Part shown: positions 11,301 through 58,245 of the stretch, piece by piece
Layout: the number at the start of each line of letters is the position of its first letter
Numbering within the stretch: the first letter of the stretch is position 1
Source of the DNA: Phytopseudomonas punonensis
GTDB lineage: Bacteria > Pseudomonadota > Gammaproteobacteria > Pseudomonadales > Pseudomonadaceae
DNA: 64,000 nt
Direction of reading: 5' to 3'
Assembly: GCF_900142655.1 (NCBI RefSeq)
Contig: NZ_FRBQ01000003.1
Span: forward strand, 312,060-376,059
Notes under the pieces: generated by a model
Databases searched by the model: none
What the model saw: only the letters and a program-made list of their open reading frames with translations
Told to the model about the DNA's origin: nothing
Translations under genes and position numbers: made by a program

Positions 11301-11576
11301 ACCGGCTATGGATTGACCCTTGGCATTCACAGCCGAAACGAGGAAACTGCCGCCCGCATCGAAGCCCTGGCGCGTGTCGGCAACCTGTACGTGAACCGCA
11401 ACCAGATCGGTGCGGTGGTCGGCGTACAGCCGTTCGGCGGCTGCGGCCTGTCCGGCACCGGCCCGAAAGCCGGTGGCCCGAGCTACCTTTTGCGCTTCGT
11501 CAACGAGCGCACCACCTCGGTGAACACCACGGCGGTGGGCGGTAATGCCTCACTGCTGTCGCTGGGCGACGAGTAA
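8400..11576 (+). CDS. putA: PutA, bifunctional proline dehydrogenase / P5C dehydrogenase
   Basis: The enzyme oxidises proline to glutamate in two steps at the inner membrane. From ATG 8400 (AAGAGG 9 bases upstream; the in-frame ATG at 8391 touches that site) the protein has 1058 residues. The FAD-dependent proline dehydrogenase barrel spans about 200-515, with ISIKLSALHPRY, LVKGAYWDSEIK and FASHNAHT. The aldehyde dehydrogenase domain spans about 560-1045, with SPWNFPLA, catalytic E813 in IAETGGQN and C847 in SAGQRCSALR. It begins at the dehydrogenase arm and lacks the N-terminal ribbon-helix-helix domain of the 1300-residue enterobacterial or P. putida PutA, so it cannot act as its own repressor. 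This short form is the P. aeruginosa type. putP follows downstream. Confidence 0.96.
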   Translation: MFKASQVLQPEFLSRICAEKSADFFPAISANYNVDEAAYLEELLQLADPGAAGIDSIRQQARSLIQDVRGRDNAVDTLDALLRQYSLDTQEGLMLMCLAEALLRVPDAATADALIRDKLSAAEWERHLGKSDNVLVNFAAWGLVMTGKVVDPQAADGRPKKVLGRLIQRSGEPVIRAAMNQAMKLMGKQFVLGRTISEALKNGRPEREKGYTYSFDMLGEAALTAEDAEKYMADYRKAIDTVGAEPQVGPGPKPSISIKLSALHPRYETAQRERVLSELFANVRELAIRARKLNVGISVDAEEADRLELSLELYEKLLRDPAVAGWGEFGLVIQAYSKRCLPVLVWLTLLGKELGEKMPLRLVKGAYWDSEIKQCQVWGLDGYPVFTRKEGTDTSYLACARYLLSDFTRGVIYPQFASHNAHTVSCILAMAAEQSSPREFEFQRLHGMGDALYDTVLEKHRKTVRIYAPVGAHKDLLPYLVRRLLENGANSSFVHQLVDPSVPVESLIDHPVTQLRKFASLANNKIPLPPALYGATRKNSQGINMNIQKSLTELENAYRPQLDRQWQAAPVINGQTLSGTAQEVRCPFDLNKRVGTAQFATAAQAAQALDGLSAAWPSWNATTIDARASVLERLADLLEKHRPELMALCTVEAGKSMQDGIDEVREAVDFCRYYAQQARLKLGREELKGPTGERNELFHEGRGIFVCVSPWNFPLAIYLGQISAALVAGNVVLAKPAEQTSLIAARALELMFEAGLPKDVIAFLPGDGATLGGVFCRDPRVAGVCFTGSTDTARIINRQLAEKDGMIATLIAETGGQNAMIVDSTALPEQVVKDAVGSAFTSAGQRCSALRVLYVQRDIADRVIDLLKGAMAELKIGPTHLRENDIGPVIDAEAREGLLAHINQLKGEGKLIAEASLRADLNGHFIAPVAFEIGGIHELKKEQFGPVLHVVRYDAGDLEKVVAAINATGYGLTLGIHSRNEETAARIEALARVGNLYVNRNQIGAVVGVQPFGGCGLSGTGPKAGGPSYLLRFVNERTTSVNTTAVGGNASLLSLGDE

Positions 11577-11646
11577 CAGACAACGGGTGGGAGTCGATGA
11601 GATTTCTGCCCGTTTTGCTATTGGGGGCCTTTGCCCCGAATCGGTA

Positions 11647-11691
11647 ACGCCACCATAAGAGTGGCGTACCTGGAGCACGACCGTAGTCGTG
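11647..11691. other. Two hairpins between putA and putP
   Basis: Two inverted repeats occupy the 176-base gap. ACGCCAC (11647-11653) pairs with GTGGCGT (11661-11667), and CACGAC (11676-11681) pairs with GTCGTG (11686-11691). Neither is followed by a T run, so they are not classical terminators. They may affect read-through or mRNA stability between the two put genes. Confidence 0.4.
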
Positions 11692-11752
11692 ATGTGCCAA
11701 CTGGATCGGTAATCCCGGTTCGAATAAAAACAAACGAGAGGGGCATTCCCCA

Positions 11753-13243
11753 ATGACTGCAAGTACTCCCATGCTGGTCACCTTCGTGGTCTATATCCTG
11801 GCCATGGTGCTGATTGGTTTCATTGCCTACCGTGCGACCAAGAACTTCTCCGACTACATCCTCGGCGGCCGCAGTCTCGGCAGTTTCGTCACTGCGCTGT
11901 CCGCCGGTGCCTCGGACATGAGCGGCTGGCTGCTGATGGGCCTGCCGGGCGCCATTTTCATCGCCGGTATCTCGGAAAGTTGGATCGCCATTGGCCTGAT
12001 CCTCGGTGCCTGGCTGAACTGGCTATTCGTGGCTGGCCGCCTGCGTGTGCACACCGAGCACAACAACAATGCGCTGACCCTGCCGGACTTCTTCACCCAC
12101 CGTTTCGAAGACAACAGCAAGCTGCTGCGCATCTTCTCGGCGCTGGTGATCCTGGTGTTCTTCACCATCTATTGCGCCTCGGGCGTGGTGGCAGGTGCGC
12201 GTCTGTTCGAATCCACCTTCGGCCTGAGCTACGACACGGCGCTTTGGGTCGGTGCGGCGGCGACCATCCTCTATGTATTTGTAGGCGGCTTCCTTGCCGT
12301 GAGCTGGACTGACACCGTGCAGGCAACGCTGATGATTTTCGCGCTGCTGATCACCCCGGTATTCGTCATCCTCGCTCTTGGCGATTTCGATGCTGCCATG
12401 GTGACCATCGAGCAGGCCAATCCGGCCAATTTCGACATGTTCCGCGGCCTGTCCTTCGTTGCCATCATCTCGTTGCTGGCCTGGGGGCTGGGCTATTTCG
12501 GCCAGCCGCACATTCTGGTGCGCTTCATGGCTGCTGATTCGGTGAAGTCGATTCCGGCTGCCCGCCGCATCGGTATGACCTGGATGATCCTCAGCCTGGG
12601 TGGTGCGGTAGCCGTTGGGTTCTTCGGTATCGCCTACTTCGCCAACAACCCGGCGCTGGCCGGCCCGGTTACCGAGAATAGCGAACGCGTGTTCATCGAG
12701 TTAACCAAGATTCTCTTCAATCCCTGGGTTGCCGGCCTGATCCTGTCTGCCATCCTGGCGGCGGTGATGAGCACCCTGAGCTGTCAGCTGCTGGTGTCCT
12801 CCAGTGCCCTGACCGAAGACTTCTACAAGGCATTCCTGCGCAAGGATGCCAGTCAGACCGAACTGGTCTGGGTCGGTCGTGGCATGGTGCTGTTGATCGC
12901 GTTGGTGGCCATCGGTATTGCCTCCAATCCGGATAGCAAAGTGCTGGGCCTGGTGTCTTACGCGTGGGCCGGTTTCGGTGCGGCCTTCGGTCCGGTGGTG
13001 ATTCTTTCGCTGGTCTGGAAAGGCATGACCCGTAACGGCGCGTTGGCCGGTATGGTGGTCGGTGCGGTAACCGTGGTGGTGTGGAAGAACTTCATCGGGC
13101 TGGGTCTGTACGAAATCATCCCAGGCTTCATTCTCGCTACCCTGGCCATCGTGGTGTTCAGCAAGATCGGTCGCCCGGCAACGCCGACCATGGTCAAGCG
13201 CTTCGACGAGGCCGAGAAGGAGTACCAGGACGCGCATCTCTGA
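11753..13243 (+). CDS. putP: PutP, Na+/proline symporter
   Basis: Inner-membrane sodium:solute symporter (SSS family) that imports proline to feed PutA. The 496 residues are strongly hydrophobic with about 13 spans. The signature SAGASDMSGWLLMGLPGA puts D55 and S57 at the same positions as the Na+- and proline-critical residues of E. coli PutP. The start ATG is preceded by GAGAGGGG. The gene has 176 bases to putA and ends before a strong terminator at 13268, so it is probably the last gene of a put transcription unit. Confidence 0.96.
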   Translation: MTASTPMLVTFVVYILAMVLIGFIAYRATKNFSDYILGGRSLGSFVTALSAGASDMSGWLLMGLPGAIFIAGISESWIAIGLILGAWLNWLFVAGRLRVHTEHNNNALTLPDFFTHRFEDNSKLLRIFSALVILVFFTIYCASGVVAGARLFESTFGLSYDTALWVGAAATILYVFVGGFLAVSWTDTVQATLMIFALLITPVFVILALGDFDAAMVTIEQANPANFDMFRGLSFVAIISLLAWGLGYFGQPHILVRFMAADSVKSIPAARRIGMTWMILSLGGAVAVGFFGIAYFANNPALAGPVTENSERVFIELTKILFNPWVAGLILSAILAAVMSTLSCQLLVSSSALTEDFYKAFLRKDASQTELVWVGRGMVLLIALVAIGIASNPDSKVLGLVSYAWAGFGAAFGPVVILSLVWKGMTRNGALAGMVVGAVTVVVWKNFIGLGLYEIIPGFILATLAIVVFSKIGRPATPTMVKRFDEAEKEYQDAHL

Positions 13244-13267
13244 TCGTACCTGCGTAGGCTGTTGAAC

Positions 13268-13294
13268 AAAGGCCCGGACATTGTCCGGGCCTTT
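13268..13294 (+). terminator. Rho-independent terminator after putP
   Basis: AAAGGCCCGGAC pairs with GTCCGGGCCTTT around a 3-base loop and runs into TTTT. It lies 24 bases after the putP stop. It also lies upstream of the small DUF2132 gene, which therefore needs its own promoter or read-through. Confidence 0.85.
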
Positions 13295-13343
13295 TCGTTG
13301 GTGCCTGCTGGTAAGCTTGCCGCCCAGCCATCAGGAGCCCGCC

Positions 13344-13556
13344 ATGACCCCATCCAAAGACCCGCTGCACGGTATCACTTTGCAGGCCATTCTTACCGAG
13401 CTGGTAGAGCACTATGGCTGGGACGGCCTGGCCCAACGCATAGATATCCGCTGCTTCAAGAGCGACCCGAGCATCAAGTCGAGCCTGACCTTCCTGCGCA
13501 AAACGCCGTGGGCACGGGAGAAGGTGGAGGCGTTGTATCTGAGGCAGAAGCGCTAG
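13344..13556 (+). CDS. Small VF530/DUF2132 family protein
   Basis: A 70-residue soluble protein that begins [14 protein letters not shown]. It contains the family pattern [36 protein letters not shown]. The domain is known from the Vibrio VF530 protein, which has been described as a DNA-binding fold, but no cellular role is established. The ATG at 13344 has AGGAG 6 bases upstream, and a longer in-frame start at 13281 lies within the putP terminator and is unlikely. Confidence 0.85.
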
Positions 13557-13613
13557 GGTTCGTTGGCAATAGCGCCAGGCGTGAACAAGGCACAAGCGGG
13601 CATCGTTGCTGTA

Positions 13614-13670
13614 CCTGTGGAAACGGGCCATGCCCGTGACTTTTTCGCGGGCATGGCCCGCTCCCACAGG
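13614..13670. repeat. REP-type palindrome between convergent genes
   Basis: CCTGTGG plus CGGGCCATGCCCG on the left pairs with CGGGCATGGCCCG plus CACAGG on the right, forming a long imperfect hairpin. It sits between the ends of the DUF2132 gene and the penicillin-binding protein gene. Its core (GGGCATGGCCCGCTCCCAC) recurs at 17874-17924. Confidence 0.75.
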
Positions 13671-13701
13671 TGTGTGTCGACCTATTCTTTTACATCAGGC
13701 T

Positions 13702-16700
13702 CTAGTGCATCACCTGCGCCATCTGTTGCTGCGGTGGCGGCGCACATTGCGTGCGGGTGCCGGTTTGCAGGTAGGGCGCCAGGATCGGTTGCATACCCTT
13801 GAGTACCTGCACCGGCAGAGCCGAGGTGAAGCGGAAGTTCTCGGCGGCGCGGCCGGGTACGAACGCGGTGAGGGTGCCGAAGTGATCGGGGCCGAGAAAG
13901 AATACGAAGGTTGCGGTGCGGTTCTGTACCCGCGAGCTGATCACTTGGCCGCCGCGACCGACGCTGGTCATGCGGTTGTCGCCGGTGCCGGTCTTGCCGC
14001 CGAGGATCAGTGGGCTGCCGTCGGCCAGGGTAAAGGCGCCCTGCAAGCGCCGCGCGGTACCGCCATCCACTACCTGTGATAAGGCCTCGCGCAGCGCTAC
14101 GGCGACCTCCGGGGCCATCACCCGTTTGCCCGATTCGAGCACGTGTCCCAGGCGTGTTTCATAAGGCGTTCCGCCCGCGAAGTGCAGGCTGTCGATACGC
14201 ACTGTGGGCAGGCGAATACCGTCGTTCTGGATGATACCGATCAGCTCGGCCAGGGCAGCAGGGCGGTCGCCCGAGCTGCCCAAGGCGGTGGCCAAGGACG
14301 GTACCAGGTACTCGAACGGGTAGCCGAGGTTCTGCCAACGCTGGTGAATATCCAAGAAGGCTTCGACCTCCAGCATGATGCGAATGCGGCTATCTCGGGC
14401 GCTCTTGTGGCGGCTCTTGAACAGCCAGCCGTAGACCTCCTGGCGCTGCTCGGCGCTGGCGGTCACCGCGTCGGTGAACGAGGTCTGCGGGTGGTCGATC
14501 AGGTATTTCAGCAGCCACAGCTCCAGCGGATGTACGCGGGCGATATAGCCTTGGTCCGGCAGGTTGAAGGCGCCAGGGCCATAGCGCCGGTAGAGCTCGT
14601 CGATACGCTTGTCGCTGATCCGCACGCCCGGCAGATGAGCCTTGATGAAGTTGCCAAAGGTGGCCTGATCGACCTCGGGCATCAGGTAGCGGTGCACCGC
14701 CGCCAGGCGCGTGTCGGTCAGGCGCAGGCCGCCGATAAAGGTGTCCAGGCGTTCCTGGGCGGACTGGCCCTGATACTTGCGCCAGAAGCGCAACATGAAG
14801 GTGGTGCCCTCGCGGTCGGCGAAGCGGCTCAGGTATTCCTGGCGTCGTGGATCCTTATCATCCTTGAGCAGCTCGGCGCTGTTGCCTGGCGCTTGGTAGG
14901 TGCTATAGCGCACCAGGTCGCGCATCAGGCGCACGAAGGGCAGGTTGATCGATTCGCGCAGCGACTCACGCAGGGTGGGCAGCCTGCCGTCGTCCTCGCG
15001 TCGGAAGTTGCCAAAGGTATGTAAGCCGCCGCCGGTAAAGAAGCGCTCCGCTGGGCTGGCCGAATAGCGACGTTCCAGGGCGGCGTCGAGCATGCTGGCC
15101 AGGTCGGCGCCCGGATTGCGCAGCAGGTAGTCGACGGCCCAGCGACTGAGCAGATCCTGATCGGCGATGTCCTGGCCGCGCAGTTGCGCGGGGCTCATGC
15201 CGGCCAGCCGGCCATGCAGCTCGGCGATCACCTCTAGGTAGGTCGCCATCACCCGTAGCTTGGCGGTAGAGCCCAGTTCCAGTTTGCTGCTCTCGTTGAT
15301 ATCGAAGGGCTGGTGGGTATTGTCGGTCTGCACGCGCACCTGATTGCCGTTCGGCGTGCGCTCTAGGAGGGTGAAGCTGTAGCTAACGTCGCCAGTCTTG
15401 TTCGGCGACAGAAGGCGGTCGCCGAACAGGCCCACGCTTTCGGCAAACGCAGGGTCGGCGAGCTGCTCCAGATAGAGGCTGACCTGCTGCTGCAGATCCG
15501 AATTGAGGCTGGAGCGAGCCTCCAGATCGAGCCTGTCGAGCTCGTAGTAGGAGACGTTTAGCAGCCCGGCCAGCCGCGCCCTCGCCATGCTGATGCCTTT
15601 GTCGCTGTCGATGCGTTGCAGGTTGGGATCGGTCTGCCAGTCGCGGTATTTCACCTGCTGGGCCAGCGCTGAATCGCGTAACTTCGCATCCAGCACGCCG
15701 CCATCGGCGAGCAGGCGCAGGTGACTGTCGACCAGCGCAGCCAGCTCTGCACGCCCCTGGGACAAATAGTACGAAGGCCGACGTTGGGCGATCATCAGCG
15801 ACAGCACCTGGCGCAGTGCTATGCCTCGTTCGGCCAGGTTGGCATCGCTGGCATTGGCGGGATCGAGCAGGCGGTTGGTGGTGATGAAGTCGGCGCCGTA
15901 CCAGATGCGCAGGCCGTCGGCCAGGCCATGCACCTCGCCGTGGCCTGGTGCGGCCGAGAGCGGCACGCTGTTGAGGTAGTCGCGCACGATGTTCTGCCGG
16001 GCTTCGAGGGTCTTTGGCCCCCCCTGATAAGCACGTACGCTGGCGGACACCATCTGCCGCAGCTTCTCGGCCGGTGCGTGGGTGATGCCGTCCGGCGAGT
16101 GGCGGTACTTCTCCAGTTGGGTGGCCAGAGTGCTGCCGCCAGCGGACTGATCCTGCATGCCAGCGTACTTGCCGACCTGAGACAGCGCCGCCATCACGAA
16201 GCGCGGCCAGTCCACCGCCGGGTTGGCTTCGGCGGGTTCTGCGGCCAGCAATTGGCGGTCCTCGATGAACAGCAGGCTGCCGATCACCAATGGCGGAATG
16301 GCGGCGAAACTGGTGTACCGCTGGCGCGGGTTGCGCATGGTGTAGAAGGGCGTACCGCGGCAATCCTCGATGTTCACACCGGTTTGCGCTTTCTCGGCGA
16401 AAGGCGGGAAGAAGCCGCGTTCGGCGTAGTCGGTCAGCGCGGGCGAGAAGCGGCTTTGCTGCAGCACCTCGAAGCCGCGACTTTGCAGGCGTTCGATGAA
16501 AGTCGGCAGGCGGCTGTAGCCCTGGCGCTGATCGAAGGGGCCGTTGCCGGGGTAGACGATGGCGTCGCTGGGGCCGTCTTCTAGCGCGAACGTCAGCGTG
16601 GCGGCATAGCGGCTCAGTTCACTGGATTGGAAGTGGGCGGTGCGCAGCTCAAAGACCACAAGCCCCGTGATACCTATGAGCCCGAGCAACAGCGTCGAGC

Positions 16701-47818: not shown

Positions 47819-48469
47819 ATGCCCCATGATCTTTTCATCGTCGCTGACGATCACCCGCTTTTTCGTGATGGACTGGTGCGGCTGCTAGCACAGGCACGAC
47901 CGGACGCCTCGATCAAAGAGGCGGCGACGCTGGATGAGGCCTTGACGCTGGCTCGGTCGCAGCTTCCTACGGGCATTTTTCTGGACCTGATGTATTCGAG
48001 CGATAACCAGTGGGCCTCTATCGCGGACTGGCGCCAGGAGTTCCCCACTTCGCTACTGCTGGTGGTGTCGATGTGCGAAGACCCGCTGGTGGTCGAGCGC
48101 ATCATGAGCCAGGGGGCCAGCGCCTTTATCGGCAAATCGCTGCCTCCCCACGAGGTCGCCGAGGCGTTGACGGCCGCGTTGAATGGCGAGCGTGTGGTTC
48201 GCTGCGCGCCCCAGGGCCGTTTCACCGCCTATGAGCCACCTGCCACCGCCGACCATTTCTCGTCGCTCACTGCACGGCAATTCGAGGTGCTGCAGCTCAT
48301 CACGGCTGGGCTGAGCAACAAGGAGATCGCACAGGTGCTGCGTATCTCCCCCTTTACCGTGCGCATTCATGTCTCTGCGCTGCTGAGTGCGCTTGGCGTG
48401 AGCTCGCGTGCGGCCGCCGCGGCGCTGGGCGCCCGGCATGGGCTAGGTGCGCAGAATCGAGGTGCCTAG
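47819..48469 (+). CDS. NarL/LuxR-type response regulator
   Basis: 216 residues. The receiver domain (about 3-118) has D10/D11, phosphoacceptor D56 (IFLDLMYS) and K106. The LuxR-type helix-turn-helix (about 150-212) has LTARQFEVLQLITAGLSNKEIAQVLRISPFTVRIHVSALL. The ATG at 47819 is the start of the receiver homology; a longer frame to 47738 has none. The gene is convergent with the hybrid kinase gene, with 15 bases between the stops, so the two are likely partners. Confidence 0.9.
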   Translation: MPHDLFIVADDHPLFRDGLVRLLAQARPDASIKEAATLDEALTLARSQLPTGIFLDLMYSSDNQWASIADWRQEFPTSLLLVVSMCEDPLVVERIMSQGASAFIGKSLPPHEVAEALTAALNGERVVRCAPQGRFTAYEPPATADHFSSLTARQFEVLQLITAGLSNKEIAQVLRISPFTVRIHVSALLSALGVSSRAAAAALGARHGLGAQNRGA

Positions 48470-48484
48470 GTCAGGTGCGGTGGC

Positions 48485-50095
48485 CTAGCGCTCAGCCAGT
48501 TCGGCGATAACGCGCTGCAACTCGGTTGAGCGCACTGGTTTCGACAGCAGCGGTATGCTCGGGTCCGGTAACGCTGATCTGATCTTTTCCGGGGCGTGAC
48601 CCGTGAGGATCAACGCCGGTAACGAGCGGCCATGCCACTTTTCGAGCTGCGCCAGGCACTCAACGCCTGTGGCTTCACGGCCCAAATCGAAATCCGTTAC
48701 CACCACATCGCAGGGCAACGCTTCAGTGGGCGGGCTGTCGATAGCGGTCACCTTGCATCCCCAGGAGCGCAGCAATTTAGCCATTGCCTCCAGCACGCTA
48801 CGGTCATCCTCGATGAGCAGCACATGAATGCCTTCTAGGTGGGCGACAGGCTCGGCTGCTGGCAGCGCAGCGGTCGCCCCGTGAGGCATGACTTCCGGCA
48901 GGCCTTCCAGGGTGATCGAGGTGCCATGGCCGACTCGCGAGGCGACACTGATGCGCAAGTCGAGGAGGGTGGCGATGCGTTTGACGATGCTCAAGCCCAG
49001 GCCAATGCCTTCGACATCCCGATCTCGCTCCTGGCGTACGCGATAGAACTCTTCGAACAGGTGCGGCAGATGCTCCGGGGCAATGCCCGGGCCACGATCA
49101 TGCAGTTGCAGGGTGAGGGTCGAACCACGCCGGCGGCAGGCAATGAGTAACGGGCTACCCGGCGCGTATTTGATCGCATTGGAGATCAGGTTTTGCAGCA
49201 GGGTGCTGAGTAGCGCCGGGTCGCTGTAGGTCAGCGTGGCGGCGCCACGTATGCGGATATCCACCCCGGCCCAGCGCGCGGCTTCGCTGTTCTGCTTCTT
49301 CAGGTCGGCTAACAGTCGATGCAGATCCAGCGGCTGATTGCGCGGCAAGACCTGCTGCTGATCGAGCGTGTAGATGTCGAGCAGCGAGCGGAAAAGCTGC
49401 TCGACGCTTAGCAGGGAGCGGTCGACGCTATCGATCAACTGATGTTGCTCGGCATTGAGCGGGGTGCCCCGCAGGCACGTGGTGAACAAGCCGATCGCGT
49501 GAATGGGTTGGCGCAGGTCATGGCTGGCCTGCGCCAGAAAGCGCGACTTGTCCTGGTCGGCACGCTTGGCGGCCGCCATGGCCTCCTGCAAACGCCCCAG
49601 CAGGAAGTAGCTGAAGGTGGGCAGCACCAGCATGCTCAGCACCATCATCACCAGAACCGCCGGGTGCTCCTGCAGGAAGGGCATGAAGGCCGCAATCAGC
49701 GCGATAGAGGCAAGGCCGAAGGTTGTAGCGAGAATCAGATAGGGCCGGCCAAAGCGCACGCCATTGCCAACCGTCATGCTCAAAAGGACGCAGAACGTGG
49801 GTAGCAAGGTTTCCTGCCCGAGAATCATCACCGCGCAGGCGCCCAGATTGTCCAGCAGCATGGCGGCAACCCTGCGCCACACCATGGGCTGTGGCAAGAA
49901 CCAGAGGTGGGCGAGCATTAGCAGCGACAGCAGCGTGAACACCGTTCCGCTAACCAGAACCGCCTTCAGCAGTTCGGCATCGAGCAGCCCCAGCGGATAC
50001 ATGATCAGGGCATAGAGCGATACGACGAAAACCACCACCAGGCGCAGTTGTGCCTGGCTGAATTCCAAATCCTCTAAGCGAAACAGCGACTTCAT
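48485..50095 (-). CDS. RpfC-like hybrid sensor histidine kinase
   Basis: Inner-membrane hybrid kinase of 536 residues. About five membrane helices (about 17-165) with MTVGNGVRFGRPYL resemble the RpfC sensory input domain for diffusible fatty-acid signals (DSF). HisKA follows with H192 (QASHDLRQPIHAIG), then HATPase with N306, DRGPG 333-337 and GIGLGL 363-368. A C-terminal receiver has D468 (VVVTDFD) and K519. The arrangement next to a NarL-type regulator recalls PA1396/PA1397 of P. aeruginosa, where the kinase senses DSF. That orthology is from memory and needs a search. Confidence 0.85.
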   Translation of the reverse strand: MKSLFRLEDLEFSQAQLRLVVVFVVSLYALIMYPLGLLDAELLKAVLVSGTVFTLLSLLMLAHLWFLPQPMVWRRVAAMLLDNLGACAVMILGQETLLPTFCVLLSMTVGNGVRFGRPYLILATTFGLASIALIAAFMPFLQEHPAVLVMMVLSMLVLPTFSYFLLGRLQEAMAAAKRADQDKSRFLAQASHDLRQPIHAIGLFTTCLRGTPLNAEQHQLIDSVDRSLLSVEQLFRSLLDIYTLDQQQVLPRNQPLDLHRLLADLKKQNSEAARWAGVDIRIRGAATLTYSDPALLSTLLQNLISNAIKYAPGSPLLIACRRRGSTLTLQLHDRGPGIAPEHLPHLFEEFYRVRQERDRDVEGIGLGLSIVKRIATLLDLRISVASRVGHGTSITLEGLPEVMPHGATAALPAAEPVAHLEGIHVLLIEDDRSVLEAMAKLLRSWGCKVTAIDSPPTEALPCDVVVTDFDLGREATGVECLAQLEKWHGRSLPALILTGHAPEKIRSALPDPSIPLLSKPVRSTELQRVIAELAER

Positions 50096-50263
50096 GAAGG
50101 GGCTTCCGAAACCAGATCAAGCGGGCGACCTTAACGGAATTTATTCCCAGGGTGCCATGCAAGATGTGAGGTGCTGAAAATCAAAGTGCGCAGCAGGCTG
50201 TCTTGTAAGACGGCATGGGATAAGCTTGCGCCGACAATCAACCACGAAGTTGTTAACTGAACG

Positions 50264-50752
50264 ATGGGTTTTGAGCAATTAGCTGATCTACGCGACCGCC
50301 TGCGAGCTGAAAAGCAGCAGGTGAAAACCGAGCCTGCCAAGCCGCGCAAGCGCCAGCCTGCCTCGCCAAAAAAGACTCAGGAGCAGGACCCTGCGCTGGA
50401 GGCGATCTGGCGTTTGCAGAAGCACTTCCCGCTGGCCTTCCCGGTCAATCCCGCCCCCAAGGTTCCGCTCAAGGAAGGCATTCTCAAGGATGCCGAGCAG
50501 CACCTGGAGAAGCTGGGCATATCCCAGGAGCAGCTCAAGCTTGGCTTGGCATCCTGGTGCCGGGGCGGTCGCTACTGGGCTAGCATGATCGAAGATGCCC
50601 CGCGCCTGGACTTGGATGGCCAGGCAGCTGGCACGGTGACGGCGGCCCAGGCACTGCATGCCAAGCAGCAGGCCAGACGCCAGCGCAGCCAGATGCGTCG
50701 AGCTCAGCAGAAGCCGAAAGAACCGGCCGCCACTGCTGATAGCGATGCCTGA
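50264..50752 (+). CDS. proQ: ProQ/FinO-family RNA chaperone
   Basis: 162 residues. A basic, flexible N-terminus (about 1-40) rich in Lys, Pro and Gln is followed by a FinO/ProQ domain (about 42-120). In it, LQKHFPLAFPVNP, PLKEGILKDAEQHL and WCRGGRYWASMIEDAPRLDLDG are the family hallmarks. A basic low-complexity tail (KQQARRQRSQMRRAQQ) follows. Such proteins bind structured RNAs and 3' ends of mRNAs. It is divergent from the hybrid kinase gene and stands alone. Confidence 0.9.
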   Translation: MGFEQLADLRDRLRAEKQQVKTEPAKPRKRQPASPKKTQEQDPALEAIWRLQKHFPLAFPVNPAPKVPLKEGILKDAEQHLEKLGISQEQLKLGLASWCRGGRYWASMIEDAPRLDLDGQAAGTVTAAQALHAKQQARRQRSQMRRAQQKPKEPAATADSDA

Positions 50753-50873
50753 CAGCGCAGTCACTGCGCACACGGCCTTCCCGCAATAGCGAAACCAGCG
50801 AACCACTGCCAGGGTGAATGGCGTTAGCCTTACATTCTGGCCAGTGCCGCTGCCTTTCCTGGACCCGACCCTC

Positions 50874-51323
50874 ATGCTGCATAAGCTCGGCCTCTGCCTT
50901 AGCGCCATGCTTCTGCCAGTGCTCACGGCCTGCACCGGCAAGCCGATGGAGCGCAAGGTGGTGTACGAGAACTCGGTTTACCACTGGCGCATCGAGCATG
51001 TGATCGTGCGTAACTTCCCGGCGGGCAGCCACCAGTACTACGAGGTGTTCCTAAAGGATCAGCCGTTGGTATTGCCGGCATCGGCCTTCAACGATCAGCG
51101 TGATATCGGCCAGTTCATCGCGGCCGGTGGCTTCGATGTCGGGCACTGGCGTAACAAGTCGATCGTGGTGGCGTTCGAGAATATTCAAGCGCGAGAAGGG
51201 CAGTCGGTGCGGTTGATTCGCTCGGTGATGATCACTCCGGATCTCACCGATGGCGAAGTGGTGCTGACGGATATGTACACCCAGCAAGAAGTGCTTGTGC
51301 AGCGGGTCGGGCCAGGCAACTGA
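50874..51323 (+). CDS. Putative lipoprotein of unknown function
   Basis: 149 residues from ATG 50874. The signal peptide of about 18 residues ends in a lipobox, LLPVLTAC, which makes the Cys near residue 19 the lipidated one. The mature part is beta-rich, with YENSVYHWRIEHVIVRNFPAG and SHQYYEVFLKD. The longer frame to 50814 would bury the signal peptide and is rejected. No family was recognised. It lies 121 bases after proQ. Confidence 0.75.
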   Translation: MLHKLGLCLSAMLLPVLTACTGKPMERKVVYENSVYHWRIEHVIVRNFPAGSHQYYEVFLKDQPLVLPASAFNDQRDIGQFIAAGGFDVGHWRNKSIVVAFENIQAREGQSVRLIRSVMITPDLTDGEVVLTDMYTQQEVLVQRVGPGN

Positions 51324-51429
51324 CCCAGTGCTCGCTCAGGCTTGGCTCTGGCCCAGCACGTTGGCTTCGTGGGTGATGGCGAGCATGTTGCGCATTGGCG
51401 AGGCGTAATTGGTTCTAAAAAGGCGCAGA

Positions 51430-51981
51430 TTATTTTCTGGTTGTTTTCTCGCGCTCAGCTTCCTCGCCAATGCAGATCCTGGGGGATTTGAATCCCATGG
51501 CAATCCACGCGGCCAACAGCTTTGCATAGAATCGCCAGGTCTGAAGCGTGCCCGCTGGAACACTCTCATCGAGCGCCAGTTGGTCTCTTCTGTCGCGGGT
51601 CATGGTGCGCAGCTGCGGCGTTGGCCGTGTCTCTGCGGGCCAGAGACTCGAATAAAGGCTGAGCCAGTGGCCGCTCTGGAATTCGAGAAAGATCGGGCTG
51701 TTGCAGCACCGGCTGATTACGCGGCGCGTTGGAGCTTTAGGCCCGAGCCGGAAAGCCTCCAGAAGATCCCGGCCGCGCAGGATTTGGATCCTGTCTTTGC
51801 GATAGAGCACAAACTGCGTGCCTGCATTGCGCTCCAGCATTGGCCGCGCAAGCGGCAGCTGCTCAAGACGTGCCGCCGCTTCCCGGCAACTGTTGCAATG
51901 GCATTCGGTGGAGATGAACGGCGCCCCATCGAGTTCGATGGCAACCTTTGCGCAATCGCACGTCACAACGTTCTTAGCCAA
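51430..51981 (-). CDS. GFA/CENP-V-fold protein (DUF6151-like)
   Basis: Zn-binding protein of the glutathione-dependent formaldehyde-activating (GFA) fold. The first ligands are visible in VTCDCAKVAIEL and ECHCNSCREAAARL, and a further Cys pair in VISRCCNSPIF. The rest is of the DUF6151 kind. The start is uncertain: the frame is open to ATG 52068, but homology-like sequence begins after residue 30, and TTG 51981 is a reasonable alternative (about 183 residues). The function is unknown; no formaldehyde genes are nearby. Confidence 0.7.
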   Translation of the reverse strand: MAKNVVTCDCAKVAIELDGAPFISTECHCNSCREAAARLEQLPLARPMLERNAGTQFVLYRKDRIQILRGRDLLEAFRLGPKAPTRRVISRCCNSPIFLEFQSGHWLSLYSSLWPAETRPTPQLRTMTRDRRDQLALDESVPAGTLQTWRFYAKLLAAWIAMGFKSPRICIGEEAEREKTTRK

Positions 51982-52273
51982 GCTGCCACTTCTTGAAGAT
52001 TGGTCTTGCTGCCTTCTGACGCCCCAAACAACAGGCGTCTTTGAGCCGCAAAGCCATTCTCTCGTCATCGATTGCTATCGAGGTTGATCGGCATCGTATC
52101 GCCCTGCCAGGAAGGAAGCCCAGCGCCGTTCGGCTGGCGCCTAGCTTTGAGACAATGGCGCTGGGAGAGCTGTTCATCAGGCGCGCAGTACTAACGAAAA
52201 TAAATAGGCGGCAGACCGCAATTAACGTCGCATTGAGCCGTAGCACTCGATGATATTTGAAGAGGTGGGTTCT
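51982..52273. other. Region between the GFA-like gene and the AT-rich island
   Basis: No convincing gene. Open frames of 70-90 codons on both strands overlap each other and show no recognisable motif. The composition changes from GC-rich to AT-rich near 52190-52260, which marks the left edge of the island. Confidence 0.5.
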
Positions 52274-53140
52274 TTATTTAATGTGGCGTGATATATAGAT
52301 TTTGGGCTTAAGCGCGTATCCGCTAACTAATTTCTTCCAGGCTTCGACTGCTAGTAGGAATTGGATAGAGTTTACATCTGTGATGTTTTTAACGTCTTCT
52401 TCGAATACAAACCAAAGCGCCGCCGAAGTCAGCTTCTTGTTGAACTTTATTTTGTTGTTTTTGATGAGGGTTATTGAGTCTTTCGATTGCTCAATGTTGT
52501 AGATTAACTCGGGCTTCTTTTTTGAGATCTTTACGGAAATTATTTCGCCTTTATAATAGAGGTCTGCTATTTCAATTTGATAATCTCTTCTTTTTTGATC
52601 TAGCGAGCGAATAGCTGTTAACTCACGGTCTAAAAGTGTATATCCGCGATCGTTACATATTTTTTGATTGAAATATGCTTCGCGATAGTCAACTTTGTCA
52701 TCTCCGTTTTGTTGATTCGCTCGCTTGTTAGTTTGCCAAGTAATGAAGTCTGCCTCAATCAGTTGTTCTTCTATAATTATATCAATAGTGCTAAGAGAGC
52801 GTTTCAGGTAATCCATGAAGACTTGGTTGAAAAAGAACCATTCGCCGTTTTTCAAAAAATATTGCTGCTCATCCCACGTGATAGGTATGTCCAGAAGCTC
52901 TTTTAGGCTTCTAGTAAAGCGCCCTGTATCCTCGCTTTTAAACTGCACTGTTACATTGTTTATATCGTCAATGTCGGGGTTTTCAGCTAGGAATTCCGAG
53001 ATGCCTTCAATTTCCAAAGTGTTGCCTAGGGGCTTGCTTACGATTCTCCCCTCACTACTCTTTGCCTTGATGACATAGTCATAGTCATGAAAGTTAAAGC
53101 ATATGGATACACCGCTTACATGGAACTGATCGATGTCCAC
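52274..53140 (-). pseudogene. C-terminal part of a DUF6119-like protein, separated by an in-frame stop
   Basis: 288 residues in the same frame as the N-terminal part. It reads as the second half of a TIGR04141/DUF6119 'sporadically distributed' protein: QYFLKNGEWFFFNQVFMDYL, then EAYFNQKICNDRGYTLLDRELT, and a nuclease-like region EIADLYYKGEIISVKISKKKP. The possible start is GTG 53140 with a ribosome site (AAGGGAG) that is too close. It is strongly AT-rich against all neighbours. It could be a separately translated protein, the remnant of a broken gene, or reachable by stop read-through. Confidence 0.7.
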
Positions 53141-53173
53141 GCTCCCTTCACCGTTTTTCAGATGATTAAAAGT

Positions 53174-53857
53174 TTAGGTGTCTAGATCGTCTGCTATATC
53201 AGAGTTGGCCGATTCTAGTTTCGGAAGATGTATTATTTGATCATCCTTGAAACTGGCTTCAATTATTTTGAATATTTCAGGGAGGTGCATGGGTTGCTTG
53301 TCCATGTCCATCTGGATAGAGTCAGCAAAAATTATATTGCGTTTACCCCATAATGTTTTATTTGCGGCCTTCAGTTTTATGTGATCTACAGATTCTCCGG
53401 CTTCATAGTTATTTATTTGGAATTGTTGGTATGAAGATACGTCTTGCCTTTTTGTGCCAGTAAAATACCGGCTTTTCTTGAGCAGTATCGAGCTCTCATC
53501 AGCCATATGTAGAGCGAGATCAATACCAAAATCTAGTTGTATGAATTTTGAGAGGTAAAAGTGTGATTTGCCTAAGCTGACGGCAAATATCTTCTCGGGT
53601 TCTAAAGTGTTTATACAAATTAATACTGCGAAGTTAAAAATATTTTTTGGCTCTTCTACGTCTTTGTTGAAGAAGTCGCGGTATGTCTTCCACCACCAAA
53701 CTTCATTACCTTCTACTTTTTCTGAAAAGTAAAATGTTTTTGAGTATCCGTCCTTTTGTAGCGTTTTTTGCTCTACTAGCCCAACGGATGTTAATTTTTC
53801 CTTTAGTTGGTCCAGTTTGGTTGGTTTGACTTTGTAGATATTATAAGTGTTAGCCAT
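53174..53857 (-). pseudogene. N-terminal part of a DUF6119-like protein
   Basis: 227 residues, starting MANTYNIYKVKPTKLDQLKEKL. It contains the family features of the first half: IFAVSLGKSHFYLSKFIQLDFGIDLALHMAD, then SRYFTGTKRQDVSSYQQFQIN and KLKAANKTLWGKRNIIFADSIQM. AAGGGA lies about 6 bases before the ATG. It ends with TAA at 53174-53176, after which the same frame continues for 11 codons into the second part. Together the two make about 527 residues, close to full-length members of the family. It is AT-rich, which indicates horizontal transfer. Confidence 0.72.
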
Positions 53858-54201
53858 GACAATTCCCTTTGTATGTGACTTCGTTCTGGAGTTATGAGAT
53901 TCATCCTCAAGTGAGGAGTTTCTCCTTTGGATGTCGCCGTGATTAAAATGAATGGCAGCCTAGCTATCGTTTCCTATAAGGCTAAATGCTATCACTAGTT
54001 ATGGCAATGATGCTGGTTTGATGAAATGGGTGAAAACGGGTACGGATTGGGCAGATTTATTTTCTGCTCCAAGCCGACAGGTTCTAAAAGCCATCCTTCG
54101 CTAACTTACTCTTTCCTCAATTTCCATCGACAGCCCACCCTGCACCCCACCCCCCGGAATCTGCGACAATCGCCGCTTTTCCGCGACCCGCCCCGAGCCT
54201 G
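53858..54201. other. Intergenic region between the AT-rich island and hrpA (344 bases)
   Basis: No gene is seen. It must carry the minus-strand promoter of the DUF6119-like gene and the plus-strand promoter of hrpA. Two small inverted repeats lie together: CCTCA-AG-TGAGG (53905-53916) and AGGAG-TTT-CTCCT (53914-53926). The sequence remains AT-rich until about 54110. Confidence 0.5.
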
Positions 54202-57200
54202 ATGACCGACGCCCCCTTCGATATCGCCGCCCTGCAGAAGAACCTCGACCACGCCATGATCGCCGACCGCCATCGTCTGCGTCGGCAGTTGTACGAGCTG
54301 CAGAAAAAGCCCGACGAGGCCAAGCAGGCGCAGTGGCTGGAGCGTTTGCAGGCGTCGTGCGCCAAGGTCGAGGCGCGGCGCTTGAGCGTGCCAGTGATGC
54401 GTTATGACGACGCCTTGCCGATTGCCGCCAAGCGCGACGAGATCAAGGCAGCGCTGGAAAAGCATCAGGTATTAGTGATCGCCGGCGAAACCGGCTCGGG
54501 CAAGACCACTCAGCTGCCGAAGATCTGCCTGGAAATCGGCCGGGGCCAGCACGGCCTGATCGGTCATACCCAACCACGGCGTTTGGCGGCGCGCAGCGTG
54601 GCCACGCGGGTGGCCGAGGAGATCGGCACACCGCTCGGTGAGCTGGTCGGCTACCAGGTGCGCTTCGAGGATCAGAGCAAGGACAGTTCGCTGATCAAGC
54701 TGATGACCGACGGCATTCTGCTCGCCGAGACCCAGCACGACCGCTACCTGGAAAAGTACGACACCATTATCGTCGACGAGGCCCACGAACGCAGCCTCAA
54801 TATCGATTTTCTCCTGGGGTATCTGAAAACCCTGCTGCCGCGCCGCCCCGATCTCAAGGTGATCATCACCTCGGCGACCATCGACCTGGAGCGCTTTTCC
54901 AAGCACTTCGGTGGCGACGGGCTGCCGGATGCACCCATCGTCGAGGTTTCCGGGCGCACCTATCCGGTGGAAACCTGGTACCGCCCGCTGGCCGCCGAGG
55001 TGGACGAAGAGGGCGAAAGCCTGCTCGACGACCTGACCGTCGACCAGGCCATTCTCGCTGCGCTGGACGAGATCGCCGCCCATGAGAAGAGCGTCGGCCA
55101 GCGCCCCGGCGATGTGCTGATCTTCCTGCCCGGCGAGCGCGAGATTCGCGATGCTGCCGAGGTACTGCGCAAGGCCAACCTGCGCTTTACCGAAGTGCTG
55201 CCGCTGTATGCGCGGCTGACGCCGGCCGAGCAGCAGAAGATCTTCGCGCCCATGGCCGGGCGCAAGATCGTGCTGGCCACCAACGTGGCGGAAACCTCGC
55301 TGACGGTACCCGGCATTCGCTACGTGATCGACAGCGGCACGGCGCGCATCAGCCGCTACAGCTACCGCGCCAAGGTGCAGCGCCTGCCCATCGAGGCCAT
55401 CTCCCAGGCCAGCGCCAACCAGCGCAAGGGCCGTTGCGGGCGGGTCGAGCCGGGCATCTGCGTGCGCCTGTACAGCGAGGAGGATTTCCTCGGCCGGCCG
55501 AGCTTCACCGATCCGGAAATCCTGCGCACCAATCTGGCGGCGGTGATCCTACAGATGCTCCATCTGCGCCTGGGCAGTATCGAGGATTTCCCCTTTATCG
55601 AACCACCGGATGGCAAGGCCATCAGCGATGGTTTCAACCTGCTGCAAGAGCTTTCGGCGGTCAATCGAGAAGGCCAGCTGACGCCACTGGGTCGCCAGCT
55701 GGCGCGCCTGCCCATCGACCCGCGCCTGGGCCGCATGGTGCTCGAAGCGGCCAAGCTCGGCAGCCTGCCGGAACTGTTGATCGTCGCCAGCGCGCTGTCG
55801 GTGCAGGACCCGCGCGAGCGGCCGATGGATCGCCAGCAGGCGGCCGACCAGGCCCACGCGCAGTGGAAGGACGTGGATTCGGATTTCGCCGCGCTGATCA
55901 ACCTGTGGCGTGGCTTCGAGGAAAAGCGCCAGGAGCTGGGCTCCAACCCGCTGCGCAGTTGGTGCAAGAAGAACTTCCTCAACTACATGCGCCTGCGCGA
56001 ATGGCGCGATGCCCATCGCCAGCTGGTGCTGCTCGCCAAGGATCTGCAGCTGGCGCCCGGCAAGGCTGGCGCTCAGGCGGCGGACGGCGGCAAGCCTGCG
56101 CAGGCCCAGGTGCAGGCGACCACCGACACCAAGGTCAACGTGATCCTGCGCGAGCAGGCCGAAGCCAGCGAAGCCGCGCAGCGCGCCAAGGGTTACGCGG
56201 CCGTGCACAAGGCGATTCTCAGCGGCCTGCTCAGCCAGATCGGCCAGAAAGCCGAGGAGGGCGACTTCCTCGGTGCTCGGCAGCGACGCTTCTGGGTGCA
56301 TCCGTCGTCGGTGATCGGCCGCAAGAAGCCCAACTGGATCATGGCCGCCGAGCTGGTCGAAACCACCAAGCTGTTCGCCCGCCAGGTGGCGAAGATCGAG
56401 CCGGACTGGATCGAGCCCCTGGCCGGCCACCTGATCAAGAAGAACCACTTCGAGCCGCACTGGGAGAAGAAGCGCGGCCAGGTGGTGGCGTATGAGCAGG
56501 TCACCCTGTACGGCATGATCGTGGTCGGTCGTCGCCCGGTGCATTACGGGCCCATCGACCCTGTGGCGTCCCGTGAGCTGTTTATTCGTGAAGGGCTGGT
56601 GCGTGGCGAAATCAACAGCCGCGCCAAGTGCCTGAACGCCAACCGCGTACTGCTGGAAAAACTCGACGAGCTGGAAGCCAAGGCGCGTCGCCGCGACATT
56701 CTCGCCGACGAGGAAACCCTGTTCGCCTACTACGAGGCGCGCATTCCCGCGGACATCTACCAGACCGCCACCTTCGAGAGCTGGTACAAGCGCGAGAGCG
56801 CCAAGGACCCGCAACTGCTGATGATGCGCGAGGAGGACGTGCTGGCCCGCGAGGCGCTGGAAGTCACCGCCGCGCAGTACCCGGACACCCTGCATATCGG
56901 TGAGCTGCAGTTGCCGCTGACTTATCACTTCGAGCCCAACCACCCACGCGACGGCGTGACCCTACGCGTGCCGGCGCCGCTGTTGCCGCAGCTGCCGGGC
57001 GAGCGCCTGGAGTGGCTGGTGCCGGGGCTGATCGAGGCCAAGGCCATCGACCTGGTGCGTGGCCTGCCCAAGGCCATCCGCAAGAACTTCGTGCCGGTGC
57101 CGGACTTCGTCGGCGCCGCCCTGAGCAAACTCACCTTCGGCCAGGGCAGCCTGCCAGAAAGCCTGGCCCGTGAACTGCAACGCATGACCGGCGCACGGAT

Positions 57201-58245
57201 CGACAGCGAGGCGTGGGTCGAGGCGACCCGCCAGCTGGAAAGCCACCTGAAGATGAACATCGAGGTGGTCGATACCCACGGCAAGCCGCTCGGCGAAGGC
57301 CGCGACCTGGCCGAGCTGACTGCGCGTTTCGCCGAGGCCAGCCAGGCCGCGCTGGCCATCCCGCAAACCGACAAGGTGCAGAAGCCGGTTGAAGCCAAGG
57401 GCTTCGCCCAGGTTGCCGAGAAGACTCAGCAGAAGGTTGCCGGGTTGTCGATGACGGTGTTCCCGGCGCTGGTGGAAGAAGGTGCTGTGGTCAAGGAAGG
57501 GCGCTTCCCGACCCAGGCCGAAGCCGAGTTCCAACACCGTCGCGCCCTGCAGCGCCTGTTGCTGCAACAGCTGGCCGAGCCCGCCAAGTTCCTGCGCGGC
57601 AAATTGCCTGGGCTGACTGAGCTGGGCCTGCTGCACCGCGACTTGGGCCGCGTCGATGCACTGGTCGAAGACATACTGCTGGCCAGCCTGGACAGCTGCA
57701 TCCTCGACGGCGAACAGCCGCTGCCCCGTGATGGCGCAGCCCTGGCCGCCCTGGCCGAGAAGAAGCGCGGCGCCTGGACCGAGCACGCCGAGAAGCTGGC
57801 GCGCCTTACCCTGGACATTCTCAAGCTGTGGCACGGCCTGCAGAAGCGCTTCAAGGGCAAGATCGACCTGGCCCAGGCCGTGGCGCTCAACGACATCAAG
57901 GCGCAGCTGGGCAATCTCGTCTATCCCGGCTTCGTGCGCGAAACCCCGGCCGAATGGCTCAAGGAAGTGCCACGCTACCTCAAGGCCATCGAACAACGCT
58001 TCGACAAGATCGCCGCGCAACTGCAACGCGACCGCGTGTGGAGCGGCGAGCTGGCCGGCTATTGGGAGCAGTACCAGGCGCGCCTCGGCAAGCACCTGCA
58101 GGAAGGTAAGCGTGACCCCAACCTGACCCTGTACCGATGGATGCTCGAAGAGTACCGCGTATCCCTCTGGGCCCAGCAACTGGGCACGAAGATGGCGGTG
58201 TCGGACAAGCGCCTGAGCAAGCAGTGGAGTCAGGTGGAGGGCTGA
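54202..58245 (+). CDS. hrpA: HrpA, DEAH-box ATP-dependent RNA helicase
   Basis: RNA helicase of 1347 residues, close to E. coli HrpA. Walker A is GETGSGKT (95-102), DEAHERS begins at 192, SATID follows near 224, and QRKGRCGRVEPG marks motif VI. The HA2 and OB domains follow, then the long HrpA-only DUF3418 C-terminus (about 720-1330). In E. coli HrpA resolves stalled ribosomes and processes some mRNAs. It starts at ATG 54202 and forms a single-gene unit right beside the AT-rich island. Confidence 0.95.
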   Translation: MTDAPFDIAALQKNLDHAMIADRHRLRRQLYELQKKPDEAKQAQWLERLQASCAKVEARRLSVPVMRYDDALPIAAKRDEIKAALEKHQVLVIAGETGSGKTTQLPKICLEIGRGQHGLIGHTQPRRLAARSVATRVAEEIGTPLGELVGYQVRFEDQSKDSSLIKLMTDGILLAETQHDRYLEKYDTIIVDEAHERSLNIDFLLGYLKTLLPRRPDLKVIITSATIDLERFSKHFGGDGLPDAPIVEVSGRTYPVETWYRPLAAEVDEEGESLLDDLTVDQAILAALDEIAAHEKSVGQRPGDVLIFLPGEREIRDAAEVLRKANLRFTEVLPLYARLTPAEQQKIFAPMAGRKIVLATNVAETSLTVPGIRYVIDSGTARISRYSYRAKVQRLPIEAISQASANQRKGRCGRVEPGICVRLYSEEDFLGRPSFTDPEILRTNLAAVILQMLHLRLGSIEDFPFIEPPDGKAISDGFNLLQELSAVNREGQLTPLGRQLARLPIDPRLGRMVLEAAKLGSLPELLIVASALSVQDPRERPMDRQQAADQAHAQWKDVDSDFAALINLWRGFEEKRQELGSNPLRSWCKKNFLNYMRLREWRDAHRQLVLLAKDLQLAPGKAGAQAADGGKPAQAQVQATTDTKVNVILREQAEASEAAQRAKGYAAVHKAILSGLLSQIGQKAEEGDFLGARQRRFWVHPSSVIGRKKPNWIMAAELVETTKLFARQVAKIEPDWIEPLAGHLIKKNHFEPHWEKKRGQVVAYEQVTLYGMIVVGRRPVHYGPIDPVASRELFIREGLVRGEINSRAKCLNANRVLLEKLDELEAKARRRDILADEETLFAYYEARIPADIYQTATFESWYKRESAKDPQLLMMREEDVLAREALEVTAAQYPDTLHIGELQLPLTYHFEPNHPRDGVTLRVPAPLLPQLPGERLEWLVPGLIEAKAIDLVRGLPKAIRKNFVPVPDFVGAALSKLTFGQGSLPESLARELQRMTGARIDSEAWVEATRQLESHLKMNIEVVDTHGKPLGEGRDLAELTARFAEASQAALAIPQTDKVQKPVEAKGFAQVAEKTQQKVAGLSMTVFPALVEEGAVVKEGRFPTQAEAEFQHRRALQRLLLQQLAEPAKFLRGKLPGLTELGLLHRDLGRVDALVEDILLASLDSCILDGEQPLPRDGAALAALAEKKRGAWTEHAEKLARLTLDILKLWHGLQKRFKGKIDLAQAVALNDIKAQLGNLVYPGFVRETPAEWLKEVPRYLKAIEQRFDKIAAQLQRDRVWSGELAGYWEQYQARLGKHLQEGKRDPNLTLYRWMLEEYRVSLWAQQLGTKMAVSDKRLSKQWSQVEG

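Follow-up and report, generated by a model that had tools for sequence, protein, structure and literature searches.

The DUF6119/TIGR04141 gene on the minus strand at 52274-53857 of the window (the whole stretch of 64,000 nucleotides analyzed here) appears to be a horizontally acquired gene that was recently inactivated, one case of such loss in a family whose intact protein would act as an anti-phage nuclease effector. As a whole, this reading seems to us fairly probable, and it builds on what is seen directly: the gene belongs to the family, it has a single stop, some of its relatives are intact, its GC is low, its slot is variable, and dN/dS is low both above and below the stop. The intact protein was probably a DNA-cutting defense protein, because its relatives often lie beside or inside anti-virus gene clusters. 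The window copy, taken alone, is an ordinary recent pseudogene.

The interrupted frame and its variable slot

The gene is one DUF6119/TIGR04141 frame of 527 codons with one in-frame TAA. Its upper and lower ORFs are in identical phase and are separated by the TAA (53174-53176) and 11 codons, so that the coordinates and phase of the two frames described in the first-pass annotation were reproduced. The features are as follows.

52274..53857, minus strand: DUF6119/TIGR04141 gene with a single internal TAA (PF19614 read-through match and ORF list)
53174..53857, minus strand: upper ORF, 227 aa plus TAA, ATG start, DUF6119 N-terminal part (PF19614 positions 3-206)
53174..53176, minus strand: in-frame TAA, codon 228 (several different residues there in homologues)
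52274..53140, minus strand: lower ORF as listed, 288 aa, GTG start, DUF6119 C-terminal part (PF19614 and TIGR04141)
53862..53870, minus strand: Shine-Dalgarno-like AAAGGGAAT, 5' of the upper-ORF ATG (from the sequence)

Judged from the sequence, the match to DUF6119 is real and not due to chance, as the two halves hit successive ranges of the PF19614 profile: positions 3-206 for the upper half (E 3.5e-10, 39.6 bits) and positions 272-451 for the lower frame 52274-53173 (E 8.8e-16, 58.1 bits). The read-through protein matches DUF6119 continuously over residues 29-469 (E 1.9e-27, 96.6 bits), and the earlier proposal of about 527 residues of DUF6119/TIGR04141 is thereby borne out by the joined translation as well as by each half singly. 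The curated cut-offs are 27 bits for PF19614 and 35 bits for TIGR04141; the latter model matches the lower half (E 1.5e-13, 50.1 bits) and gave no match to the upper half. The window copy does not form a single frame of ~520 codons, owing to the TAA at codon 228, and a second DUF6119 match was not found in the window genome. A purine-rich stretch lies only 1-2 nt upstream of the lower-ORF GTG. Scans for promoters and terminators gave no excess over shuffled sequence.

The GC content of 52274-53857 is 38%, against 61% in 48000-52000 and 66% in 54202-58245, in agreement with the AT-rich patch between GC-rich flanks noticed at first sight. The upstream flank was searched in 57 relatives, with a strong match in one (G001), the nearest syntenic relative. 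Similarity between G001 and the window stops at 51398 and restarts at 54127, in front of hrpA, and the slot in G001 is occupied by unrelated DNA of 3.8 kb. Because the similarity breaks at 51398 and 54127, the GFA-like and DUF6119 genes are placed in a common variable slot.

51399..54126, no strand: variable slot with the GFA-like and DUF6119 genes (no blastn match in G001)
51430-52068: GFA-like ORF (PF04828, E 1.1e-06)

The low GC and the unrelated DNA in the G001 slot, as seen when the presence of the island was compared, support the suspected acquisition of the region. The GFA-like ORF likewise had no match within the compared G001 stretch, and its PF04828 match upholds the position given to the DUF6119 gene, between a GFA-like gene and a large ORF called hrpA. 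The latter is an ORF of 1347 aa, a putative hrpA that we call so after the earlier note, and it was matched in 36 of 36 genus members searched. No tRNA gene was found in the window, and no clear boundary repeat at the slot. Repeats around the slot match only imperfectly (76-100% for a 17-nt direct repeat and 74-82% for inverted pairs) and are probably due to chance, including one inverted pair that brackets the AT-rich patch, its arms being at 52163 and 54194.

Close relatives, lesions and selection

A DUF6119 match was found in 34 of 398 genomes of the genus that includes Pseudomonas helleri and P. aylmerensis (32 above the cut-off), and in 7 of 299 genomes of the phylum. The window copy belongs to a subfamily of eight members, the seven others being 58-85% identical over the main match, and draws of 298 family genomes and 369 class genomes contained no subfamily member beyond the window. 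Profiles of the subfamily and of nine main-clade members align over 411 columns with an hhalign probability of 93%. In the 27 proteins of alignment A2, which uses window numbering and omits two main-clade members (L012 and L025) and three subfamily members (L035, L038, and L040), ten positions are invariant (G96, F110, G111, W340, E393, D410, E429, D432, K443, and Q457; 27/27), and the window frame retains all ten.

Three subfamily members (L036, L037, and L039) are intact single frames. The other five of the eight copies, with the window counted, are broken by five different lesions.

Window: TAA at codon 228
L038: TAA at codon 449
P. helleri (L002/L034/L049): insertion near codon 55, presumably of the IS3 kind
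P. aylmerensis (L003/L035): frameshift in an A tract near codon 422
L040: frameshift near codon 495-500

An internal stop occurs in 1 of 24 members of the main clade (L012), and L027, in which the usual start codon is missing upstream of the match, may be a second broken copy of that clade. The excess of lesions in the subfamily (5/8 vs. 1/24; Fisher p 0.0015) gives p 0.0048 if L027 is counted as broken, 0.0051 if the window is left out, and 0.014 if both changes are made, and becomes marginal with frameshifts excluded (3/8 vs. 1/24, p 0.039). These counts exclude two weak DUF6119 matches (G040 and G279), and the point lesions amongst them could partly be sequencing errors, which the insertion alone cannot be. 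For the window copy itself, an assembly or sequencing error in a gene that is whole in the organism seems very unlikely; the sequence does come from a single genome in 20 contigs, but the stop keeps the frame, which the usual homopolymer error does not, and other subfamily copies are disrupted as well, one of them by an insertion.

Alignment of close relatives at 53174-53176 revealed intact single-frame homologues with several residues at codon 228, which is a variable position, and a two-gene form split at this codon was not found amongst the homologues examined. NG86 dN/dS is 0.03-0.14 in the computable pairs, in which dS exceeds 1 and many pairs are near saturation, more distant pairs not being computable; between the window and L003 it is 0.03 above the stop and 0.08 below. 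Among sites that do not vary across three outgroup sequences, changes unique to the window number 1/158 above the stop and 4/184 below, such that relaxed selection below the stop is not detectable. Because dN/dS is low above as well as below the stop, the window copy looks, in these comparisons, to have lost its function recently and to have been under selection until then.

The small number of unique changes and the conserved residues kept in both halves could also be expected of a natural two-protein form, in which both ORFs would be expressed and assemble, as the first-pass annotation had suggested as an option. We consider this form highly improbable since the homologues examined are single frames at codon 228, the lower ORF starts at a GTG whose ribosome-binding site is poorly spaced, and the low divergence is equally explained by recent loss. 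Nonsense inactivation, the other option raised at the outset, is favored over it by the three intact homologues, the lack of any homologue split at that position, and the poor lower-ORF start. Reversible switching, as at phase-variable loci, would accommodate recurrent lesions alongside low long-term dN/dS, and the P. aylmerensis frameshift does lie within an A tract, but the window stop involves no frame change and would be hard to reverse, and the lesions are of different types at different places; this is the least probable of the readings weighed here.

Defense genes and restriction operons around DUF6119 genes

The neighbors of Pseudomonas DUF6119 genes were surveyed at 18 loci that were picked before the neighbors were seen, namely seven of the eight subfamily loci (window excluded) and 11 of the 24 main-clade loci. 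On either side of the gene, the closest ORF that reached 200 aa and lay no more than 4 kb away was taken, which gave 35 proteins, of which 32 were scanned; one L048 protein, the protein of the L049 insertion, and the 438-aa protein of L050 (whose L049 homologue had no match) were left unscanned. PADLOC models at E up to 1e-5 matched 16 of the 32 neighbors, or 14 without two possibly generic helicases. The matched proteins were PDC-S50, an LmuA/Cap4-type nuclease, PDC-S58 with an ApeA-like domain, AbiD, a PifA-like protein, PDC-S73, a DRT reverse transcriptase, PDC-S11, NsnA, a type IV restriction enzyme, a ThsA-like protein, a deaminase matching the dCTPase model, Dsr1, a protein like PDC-S41 and AbiO/Nhi, and the two helicases.

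With the helicases dropped, a defense-model neighbor is present at 13 of the 18 loci (4 of 7 in the subfamily) and at none of ten control loci. The controls, 20 ORFs from ten other genus members, lie upstream of hrpA and had no PADLOC match (14/32 vs. 0/20, p 0.0003; 14/35 and p 0.0008 if the unscanned three count as misses). Twelve of the 32 proteins were scanned before the list was made, some as defense-like, and all are within the list by the rule; eight further scanned proteins outside the list, six of which matched PADLOC, are uncounted. Because the control is a core locus and not a set of AT-rich islands, part of the neighbor excess may reflect islands generally.

Several gene arrangements were observed alongside this survey. 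A protein that combines pentapeptide repeats with a Cap4-type nuclease domain (L046:7029-8456) adjoins a DUF6119 gene with an internal stop, and a DarT/DarG-model pair and a type I restriction enzyme gene (L054:4770-6499 and 11322-14657) lie around a main-clade Pseudomonas DUF6119 gene. A 438-aa gene is convergent to the DUF6119 gene in P. helleri (L049:6098-7414) and in P. aylmerensis (L050:7094-8410); its P. helleri protein had no Pfam match, and a search of the window genome for the gene, run without a positive control, gave no match.

A main-clade query matched 27 plasmid records, of which 11 were examined and nine are annotated (H6, H13, H15, and H17 were left out). In four of the nine annotated plasmids (Actibacterium, Paracoccus albus, Mesorhizobium, and Mameliella), the gene is located between hsdS and hsdR, and a SprT-type protease gene then ends the operon, with frames overlapping by 1-8 nt. 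The DUF6119 gene is downstream of hsdR and the protease gene in Sinorhizobium meliloti, and in Rhizobium AB2/73 it is divergent and beside hsdR. The gene tables of the remaining 3/9 annotated neighborhoods, which are incomplete, list no restriction gene. The TIGR04141/DUF6119 genes between hsdS and hsdR are at the following positions.

L107:4152-5873
L108:4839-6566
L111:5854-7521
L114:4752-6425

Close relatives of the window protein were not found on plasmids, in E. coli genomes, or in viral contigs. A phage search gave three weak matches below 25% identity, and of three main-clade queries against viral contigs, two found distant relatives and one found none. The Pseudomonas phage record BK061476.1 encodes a DUF6119 relative between two integrase genes, with the annotation "hypothetical" (L106:5800-7509).

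No type I restriction locus was recognized around the window copy, and no defense or restriction gene beside it, among neighbors that were partly scanned (the GFA-like ORF by Pfam and NCBIfam only). Against PADLOC-DB 2.0.0, the upper half of the protein matched only Cmr1 at E 0.016 and the lower half matched nothing, and a known PADLOC system protein was rejected as an identity on this best E value. The defense reading of the first-pass annotation, a guess there, gains context evidence from the neighbors and restriction operons of relatives; no clear PADLOC model was found for the protein.

Alternatively, the window copy could be the pseudogene of some other acquired function, with DUF6119 genes as island cargo that lie near defense genes because islands collect them. 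The GFA-like gene next to the window copy, the 3/9 annotated plasmid neighborhoods without a listed restriction gene (in incomplete tables), and a literature search that found no study of DUF6119 function are in line with this alternative. We regard it as possible but rather unlikely, as the gene is inside a restriction operon on four plasmids, with frame overlaps of 1-8 nt, and defense-model neighbors occur at 13/18 Pseudomonas loci vs. 0/10 control loci.

Predicted nuclease core and comparison with known systems

The conserved residues near the C-terminus form a predicted nuclease core, and all of them are downstream of the stop in the window copy.

52487..52681, minus strand: predicted nuclease core, E393, D410, E429, D432, K443, and Q457 (27/27 in A2)

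An E, a D, an ExxD, a K, and a Q are retained near the C-terminus in 27/27 proteins of A2. For the D...(D/E)xK residues of PD-(D/E)XK nucleases, D432 and K443 are candidates present in 27/27, but the usual ExK acid is absent, its position being H in 22/27 and S in 5/27; E393, E429, and Q457 likewise occur in 27/27. These residues would fit a variant site made of a helix E, ExxD, (H/S)xK, and a Q 14 residues after the K. The nuclease-like core suspected earlier in the C-terminal part is supported by the invariant acidic, Lys, and Gln residues in 27/27 and, weakly, by comparing the fold of a distantly related protein.

For the window protein, modeling gave a poor result (mean pLDDT 50), and this model was left out of the fold search. 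P0002, a viral-contig relative that is ~18% identical, gave a model with a fair to good C-terminal half. In a VIA comparison of P0002 with the PDB, HamA, SfsA, R.BspD6I, EcoT38I, Can2, CdiA-CT, SduA, and BglII matched with Z 5.1-6.5, mostly from ~residue 345 to the end among the 16 top rows, which also include Upx (Z 5.9) and CD38 (Z 5.2); all P0002 matches are below 8, where a VIA Z can reflect a common arrangement. The nucleases in this list presumably have the PD-(D/E)XK fold. Foldseek gave no match for P0002 against the PDB at E up to 0.001. A Foldseek search of viral models likewise gave none at E up to 0.001, and two alignment-profile searches against PDB sequences returned unrelated names at E 0.35 or worse. 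The P0002 model points weakly to a PD-(D/E)XK likeness of the C-terminal part of this distant relative, and we infer nuclease activity and a defense role for DUF6119.

The intact protein of ~527 aa may be a single-gene or restriction-linked anti-phage effector, in which the N-terminal part (~residues 1-340) would serve as a sensing or regulatory part and the C-terminal part would be a metal-dependent nuclease that resembles PD-(D/E)XK enzymes and has an unusual active site, (S/H)xK. Upon infection, or upon defeat of a partner restriction enzyme, the protein would cut nucleic acid and phage growth would be stopped. From the genomic context and the precedent of PrrC and RloC, we infer that it could act on sensing of a phage or on defeat of the type I enzyme. 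Because the selective advantage would be intermittent and carriage possibly costly, copies would be gained by transfer and lost by mutation; in the window, the gene would have arrived on an AT-rich segment and then been silenced by the stop. Extended to the whole family, the proposal is that DUF6119/TIGR04141 proteins are anti-phage PD-(D/E)XK-like nucleases with an atypical (S/H)xK site and a large N-terminal sensor, which in the type I operons of some bacteria would be a PrrC-like second line, triggered once restriction is defeated, with a stand-alone Pseudomonas subfamily that is repeatedly switched off as costly and a freshly silenced copy in the window, and this wider proposal we offer as a tentative but serious possibility.

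DUF6119 is a probable defense nuclease family for which no functional study was found. In the open-access literature (bioRxiv being outside the scope), DUF6119 came up only as an incidental domain match in a wheat gene, and no mention of TIGR04141 was found. PMC12799240 concerns metallo-beta-lactamase-type nucleases, and the term DUF is absent from its main text; the relevant portion of PMC548270 contains nothing on the active site. A portion of PMC9252829 states that many putative defense genes are annotated as pseudogenes. The analysis gives a scattered, widespread family that is known by name only as sporadically distributed a concrete candidate role, that of an anti-phage nuclease effector, including occasional insertion in type I restriction operons, and the excess of broken copies in the subfamily provides a small natural data set on the loss of defense genes.

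In comparison with DUF6119/TIGR04141 proteins as a class, the window frame matches both models, although it scores ~97 bits where the 24 Pseudomonas main-clade members score 305-465 bits and is 14-19% identical to the 22 aligned main-clade members. It also carries SxK where the main clade has HxK, and it is interrupted.

HamA and SduA, of the Hachiman and Shedu systems, are amongst the best fold matches of the P0002 C-terminal part (Z 6.5 and 5.2). Passages of PMC12278908 describe HamA as an effector nuclease with a D-E(X)K motif, whereas DUF6119 is without the ExK acid and without profile similarity to HamA; SduA was compared by fold alone. Comparison by hhalign with nine Pseudomonas HamA proteins (PF08878, DUF1837) gave a probability of 0.3%, equal to that of a column-reversed control, and 0.1%. 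Membership in Hachiman is not supported, as no profile similarity to HamA was found.

The prrC gene sits between hsdS and hsdR. Both PrrC and RloC resemble DUF6119 in their setting, as DUF6119 relatives lie within type I operons in some genomes and elsewhere in others; excerpts of PMC2610378 state that PrrC is silenced by its linked type I enzyme, and that RloC inserts in type I loci, with most copies elsewhere and some thought inactive. The two differ from DUF6119 in combining an ATPase part with tRNA cleavage, whereas the predicted core of DUF6119 resembles DNA nucleases. Within what the search filters let through, the 27 A2 proteins have no ATPase or tRNA-cleaving Pfam domain even at an E of up to 10, and they matched no other Pfam family at better than E 0.014.

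The CCGG-family restriction enzymes, which have permuted active sites (PfoI, NgoMIV, and Cfr10I), are a further comparison, by residue pattern and fold. Against P0002, PfoI ranks only 32nd (Z 4.5). In residue pattern, the likeness is seen between the E...ExxD...K...Q of DUF6119 and the active site of PfoI, E...ExD...K with a shifted acid, in whose place Kpn2I has a glutamine, as given in a section of PMC6344858.
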